Source: Prochlorococcus sp. AG-402-P18 (GTDB taxonomy: Bacteria > Cyanobacteriota > Cyanobacteriia > PCC-6307 > Cyanobiaceae). Taken from it: a DNA stretch of 64,000 nt. The notes under the pieces were generated by a model, which was not told the origin of the DNA, made no database searches, and saw only the letters and a program-made list of their open reading frames with translations. Below are positions 59,407 to 59,541 of the stretch, piece by piece. Numbering within the stretch: position 1 is the stretch's first letter; every line of letters begins with the position of its first letter. The position numbers and the translations under genes were made by a program. Location of the stretch: contig QCJC01000002.1 of the NCBI GenBank assembly GCA_003216275.1, positions 62,001 through 126,000 of the forward strand, in the 5' to 3' direction.

Positions 59407-59541
59407 TCAACTCATCGGCATGAATAAGTAGTCGGGAGCAACATAATTCACTGCTATAAGGATGACTGCTGTACTGGAAAGCCATAGTGTTGCCACTACT
59501 GGTGCGGACTTAAACCACTTTGTACGAAAGATTTTAAACAT
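59407..59541 (-). CDS. Divergent second PsaJ-like protein (photosystem I subunit IX paralogue)
   Basis: Hand-translated 44 aa [44 protein letters not shown]; colinear with PsaJ at 1866-2003, 27/44 identical by hand count. Confidence 0.88.

Follow-up and report, generated by a model that had tools for sequence, protein, structure and literature searches.

Photosynthesis genes of cyanophages are generally host-derived, and gene traffic between cyanophages and their hosts is known for psbA and hli. As regards photosystem I (PSI), a viral psaJF-C-A-B-K-E-D cassette encodes a PsaJF fusion. That marine cyanophages also have psaJ as a standalone gene is mentioned in PMC5019241, with reference to Sharon et al. 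2011, and ndhI has been described in viromes together with the idea that cyclic electron flow is favoured (PMC3877843). The PsaJ subunit itself was shown in T. elongatus to coordinate three chlorophylls through Thr22, Glu28 and His39 (PMC7002129), and the ligand positions are numbered here as in that protein. In far-red PSI containing the isoform PsaJ2, none of the three PsaJ-ligated chlorophylls was seen (PMC7002129), and in A. marina a missing pigment was tied to a phenylalanine at the His39 place of PsaJ (PMC8058080). As far as these papers show, standalone viral psaJ is not new; what appears to be new here, within the literature searched, are its host counterparts, the series of ligand states and the gene neighbours.

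The locus described here belongs to Prochlorococcus and lies in a window of 64,000 nucleotides (the whole stretch of DNA that was analysed), which carries the canonical psaJ and, in an accessory region, a second and divergent copy of the class called alt1 below. The features of the window that bear on it are the following.

1866..2003, plus strand: canonical psaJ, the reference copy, directly after psaF, with Thr22, Glu28 and His39 all kept (PF01701, NF002743 and alignment)
54398..55939, plus strand: tyrosine recombinase (PF00589 match) immediately following rpsD, on the border of the accessory region; listed here for its position
58718..58888, minus strand: 56-aa membrane ORF; as a neighbour on the downstream side it is conserved across the syntenic alt1 loci
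59159..59350, minus strand: lipoprotein-like ORF of 63 aa following psaJ, with relatives in a viral family, and missing at some orthologous loci
59407..59541, minus strand: alternative psaJ (alt1 type), 44 aa (PF01701 score, alignment and dN/dS)
59542..59660, minus strand: leader, from the terminator to the psaJ start codon, conserved by p-distance
59661..59690, minus strand: intrinsic-terminator-like hairpin after the hli cluster, with an 11-pair stem and a T tract, largely conserved in 9 of 9 aligned loci
59714..60674, minus strand: six clustered hli-type ORFs, directly upstream of psaJ (ORF list and neighbour comparison), one of them with relatives in 395 phage records

The ORF at 59407-59541 has exactly the frame, the coordinates and the translation given by an earlier, sequence-only reading of this DNA, which took it for a PsaJ with two chlorophyll ligands replaced, and this identification is confirmed. 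The protein matches PF01701 at 42.5 bits (E 8.9e-11; gathering cut-off 22.4) and aligns to the canonical PsaJ of the window without gaps and with 27 of 44 residues identical (61%); residue 44 is followed by a stop codon. With the NCBIfam equivalog NF002743 it reaches 50.6 bits, below the cut-off of 69, compared to 85.9 for the canonical copy; judged by these profiles it is a member of the PsaJ family and not a strict equivalog. A PHROGs search with the alternative PsaJ gave no match. The whole 1.85-Mb assembly contains exactly two PsaJ matches (the canonical and the alternative copy), and no second PsaF, PsaL or PsaK was found in the genome, each of these, the only PSI subunits tested for doubling, being single. 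Among the ligand positions, Thr22 is kept, Glu28 is replaced by Ala and His39 by Met; the canonical set Thr22/Glu28/His39 is thus absent from this copy, as it is from PsaJ2. The glutamate and histidine had been correctly named as PsaJ chlorophyll ligands in the sequence-only reading, both being among the three residues listed in PMC7002129.

Across 41 genomes of the genus, three classes of PsaJ were distinguished: canonical, alt1 and alt2. Host canonical PsaJ keeps Thr, Glu and His in 29 of 29 distinct reading frames. An intact alt1 is present in 13 of the 41 genomes and in seven of the eight best assemblies (G000-G007), the complete genome G003 being without it, and most of the intact copies occupy one syntenic place beside the hli cluster. 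Gly or Ala at position 28 together with Met39 is fixed across the intact alt1 copies; the orthologues have Gly, and Ala is private to the genome of the window. The alt2 class, found in five of the 41 genomes, has Val or Ile at position 28 and keeps His39. In each of three alt2 loci (L033 in G016, L034 in G021 and L051 in G005) a 37-aa membrane ORF stands directly before psaJ; additionally, an integrase-like ORF lies near alt2 in L034 (26.8 bits, just under its cut-off), and a 2Fe-2S ferredoxin and a protein of 97 aa, for which 17 relatives were found in phages, lie near it in L033. Among 301 sampled genomes of the family, no genome of another genus has more than one PsaJ match, with the exception of G052, where two psaJ genes lie 0.9 kb apart (L157/L159), both with Glu28 and His39; this pair is an unrelated duplication.

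The nine syntenic alt1 copies gave a dN/dS of 0.075, the corresponding values being 0.049 for alt2, 0.050 for canonical PsaJ and 0.050 for the phage copies. Eight distinct changes in alt1 are nonsynonymous and 21 synonymous, against a neutral expectation of 75% nonsynonymous changes (p = 1.3e-7), and 28 of the 44 columns do not vary between alt1 copies, most of the N-terminal half that is common to canonical PsaJ being among them. alt1 PsaJ is under strong purifying selection. The leader is conserved as well, with a mean p-distance of 0.088 vs 0.124 at third codon positions. Elsewhere in the genus, some alt1-type copies are pseudogenes (the second copy in G022, G031, G033 and the second copy in G037), so alt1 is not essential; others have no ATG or are very divergent (G020, G018, G023 and the second copy in G004). 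Those broken by stops or without a start (the four pseudogenes and G020) lend some weight to the idea that the gene is a functionless remnant of phage integration, neutral or in decay, but in the syntenic set the low dN/dS, the conserved leader and the fixation of the changed ligand positions make such a remnant very improbable. Given the dN/dS and the leader, decay is rejected for the locus of the window, and the decaying copy that had been offered as an alternative is not borne out. Nor did any of the three outcomes occur that the sequence-only reading had named as speaking against it (no PsaJ-family HMM hit, no orthologues in related genomes, neutral dN/dS), the profile match, the 13 intact genomes and the value of 0.075 being the respective results.

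The syntenic host order runs from the six hli genes through the terminator to psaJ, followed at some loci by the 63-aa lipoprotein gene and then by the 56-aa membrane ORF. The placement of the alternative psaJ next to the hli operon, as first described, stands insofar as it adjoins six hli genes, but the conserved terminator separates it from the cluster, so that co-transcription is unlikely and the gene, on this arrangement, probably lies outside the hli operon; high-light control is for the same reason proposed only as a hypothesis. Promoter-like sites occur in the leader only in chance number, no more than in shuffles, and Rfam together with consensus folding of the leader gave no convincing family and no covariation for a structured RNA. 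No tRNA that would point to a tRNA-linked insertion was found in the window or in the tested alternative loci. Downstream of the alternative psaJ in L035 (4253-4700, G004) two different lipoprotein-like ORFs stand in tandem, the other loci having one or none. A 46-aa ORF of the window (63829-63969, plus strand), MTSIPTYDFPSFSPILVVGFLGIAVSLYTLYTVNKAYYNSPFRGEA, has no Pfam match, but 30 cyanophage records contain relatives of it, most with 60-80% identity; a relative of it also lies by the hli genes near psaJ in the phages L061 and L151.

The same gene families recur around viral psaJ. L061 and L151 encode a PsaJ of the class nearest alt1 and have four to six hli matches upstream of psaJ; a lipoprotein of the 63-aa family of the window, which is present in 26 viral contigs, directly precedes psaJ in L107/L109 and lies about 2 kb ahead of it in L056. 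The hli genes that adjoin alt1 in hosts and lie near psaJ in L061 and L151, as well as the disappearance of two chlorophyll ligands, could be taken to mean that the protein is a PsaJ-derived small membrane protein acting outside PSI, for instance with HLIPs in chlorophyll handling or photoprotection. However, the 28 invariant columns are as expected if alt1 still packs into PSI, Thr22 is kept, and the loci termed alt1b lie elsewhere, away from the hli cluster, all of which makes a role outside PSI quite improbable. For the glycine-rich neighbour at the alt1b locus a search of phages found no relative, apart from a weak pairwise match (25%) with one viral protein.

Among the phage records searched, standalone psaJ turned up in marine viruses sequenced from single cells, several of them assigned to the Kyanoviridae, and an IMG/VR scan added 63 further contigs, giving 71 viral loci in total, from T4-like cyanophages. 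The viral PsaJ is an unfused protein of 47 aa. The 68 classifiable viral copies fall by their residues at positions 22/28/39 into T/E/H (51), T/M/H (12), T/E/L (4) and T/G/L (1), and the protein-database relative P0010 also has G/L; a scan of viruses with the host alt1 alignment revealed none with the exact Met39 signature of the hosts, no viral relative being confirmed. In a tally of 72 psaJ loci (the 71 viral ones and one Synechococcus host locus), the DNA fetched for 51 contained ndhI, often right next to psaJ (for example in L056-L060, L149 and IMG/VR loci), and T4-type gp46/gp47 genes were present in 12-13. The frequent presence of ndhI near phage psaJ suggests a link to cyclic electron flow around PSI. 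The same search detected no ndhI at the alt1 loci of hosts.

In a maximum-likelihood tree (87 sequences, 47 columns, LG+C20+F+G4), the viral, alt1 and alt2 proteins form one clade with a support of 96/97, and alt1 lies inside the viral clade together with the viral His39->Leu group with a support of 100/96. The comparison with host and viral PsaJ that the sequence-only reading had called for hence nests alt1 among the viral standalone proteins. Phage origin, mentioned there as an alternative, is now the best-supported origin, but the viral counterpart is an unfused, standalone psaJ, mostly accompanied by a nearby ndhI, and not the psaJF fusion that had been thought of. Toward alt1 the ligand states in the tree run from E/H through E/L and G/L to the G/M or A/M of the hosts. 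When both ligand columns were removed, the clade of alt1 and the viral His39->Leu group stayed (97/87), and this viral group became one side of a branch (94/78) and not a grade; since the grade goes with these columns, the fine order of the ligand series rests on them.

Forcing alt1 together with host canonical PsaJ made the tree 30 lnL worse, the AU test being marginal with all columns (p = 0.045) and not significant without the ligand columns (p = 0.086), and only 44-47 aligned columns stand behind the PsaJ tree. Trees of so short a protein are weak, and these points, together with the general host origin of cyanophage photosynthesis genes, lend some weight to the reverse direction, in which canonical psaJ would have been copied within the Prochlorococcus lineage and diverged, later versions being picked up by cyanophages. 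Such a duplication within the host would nevertheless place alt1 at the base of the viral series and not, as found, at its tip, and the alternative copies are confined to one genus whereas the viral family is diverse; we regard it as unlikely. The viral origin of alt1 is therefore well supported, the evidence being good but not conclusive by sequence alone, and alt2 looks in the tree like an acquisition separate from that of alt1.

The alternative PsaJ is most likely a viral PSI-edge subunit adopted by low-light-I-type Prochlorococcus, where it would replace PsaJ in part of the PSI and remove or rewire two peripheral chlorophylls. Virus-host exchange would have placed a viral psaJ, probably with hli and lipoprotein genes, in a host island. 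When expressed, the alternative PsaJ would substitute for the canonical subunit in some PSI complexes, next to PsaF on their outer edge, packing there through its conserved N-terminal half, as the family and two solved precedents suggest. The chlorophyll linked to Thr22 would be kept and those of Glu28 and His39 lost or re-ligated, Met39 being a possible weak axial ligand; chlorophyll loss is expected because ligand loss goes with it in PsaJ2 and in the His39->Phe case of A. marina. Energy transfer or docking at the PSI edge might be altered in this way under stress, possibly high light or phage infection. As the best full explanation, a functional phage-derived PsaJ isoform that exchanges with the canonical subunit in PSI is considered fairly probable. 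More tentatively, low-light-I Prochlorococcus may have taken up viral PsaJ isoforms at least twice and with differing ligand losses (Glu28 and His39 in alt1, Glu28 in alt2), so that phages and hosts would draw on a common set of interchangeable PsaJ subunits. With these the edge of PSI would be remodelled while its core stays the same, in phages with a viral NdhI alongside.

The host would thus seem to have retained a PSI subunit of viral form as a second isoform, under selection, from which pigment ligands were removed stepwise. If PSI takes up the alternative PsaJ, it would be a minimal natural experiment on the role of the PsaJ chlorophylls and would directly test the benefit that cyanophages draw from a standalone psaJ.

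Compared to canonical Prochlorococcus PsaJ, the alternative protein has the same PF01701 domain, the RTKW..SAPVVAT N-terminal half and Thr22, but Glu28, His39 and Arg31 are replaced and the gene lies away from psaF. The viral PsaJF fusion has in common with it a phage-encoded PsaJ moiety; here a stop codon and then a lipoprotein gene follow, with neither a PsaF fusion nor a PSI cassette, and with one PsaF in the genome. The standalone PsaJ of cyanophages is closer, being likewise encoded by a standalone gene of about 44-47 aa, in the same clade of the tree and with hli and lipoprotein neighbour families, although the host copy is chromosomal, carries Gly/Ala28 and Met39, is three residues shorter at the N-terminus and has no ndhI as a neighbour. 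The PsaJ2 of FaRLiP belongs to a different lineage and has a C-terminal Tyr40 insertion that is absent here, Thr22 is kept in the Prochlorococcus copy, and PsaF, PsaL and PsaK are single in its genome; what the two have in common is that each is a second PsaJ isoform in which chlorophyll-ligand residues have been lost (PMC7002129).
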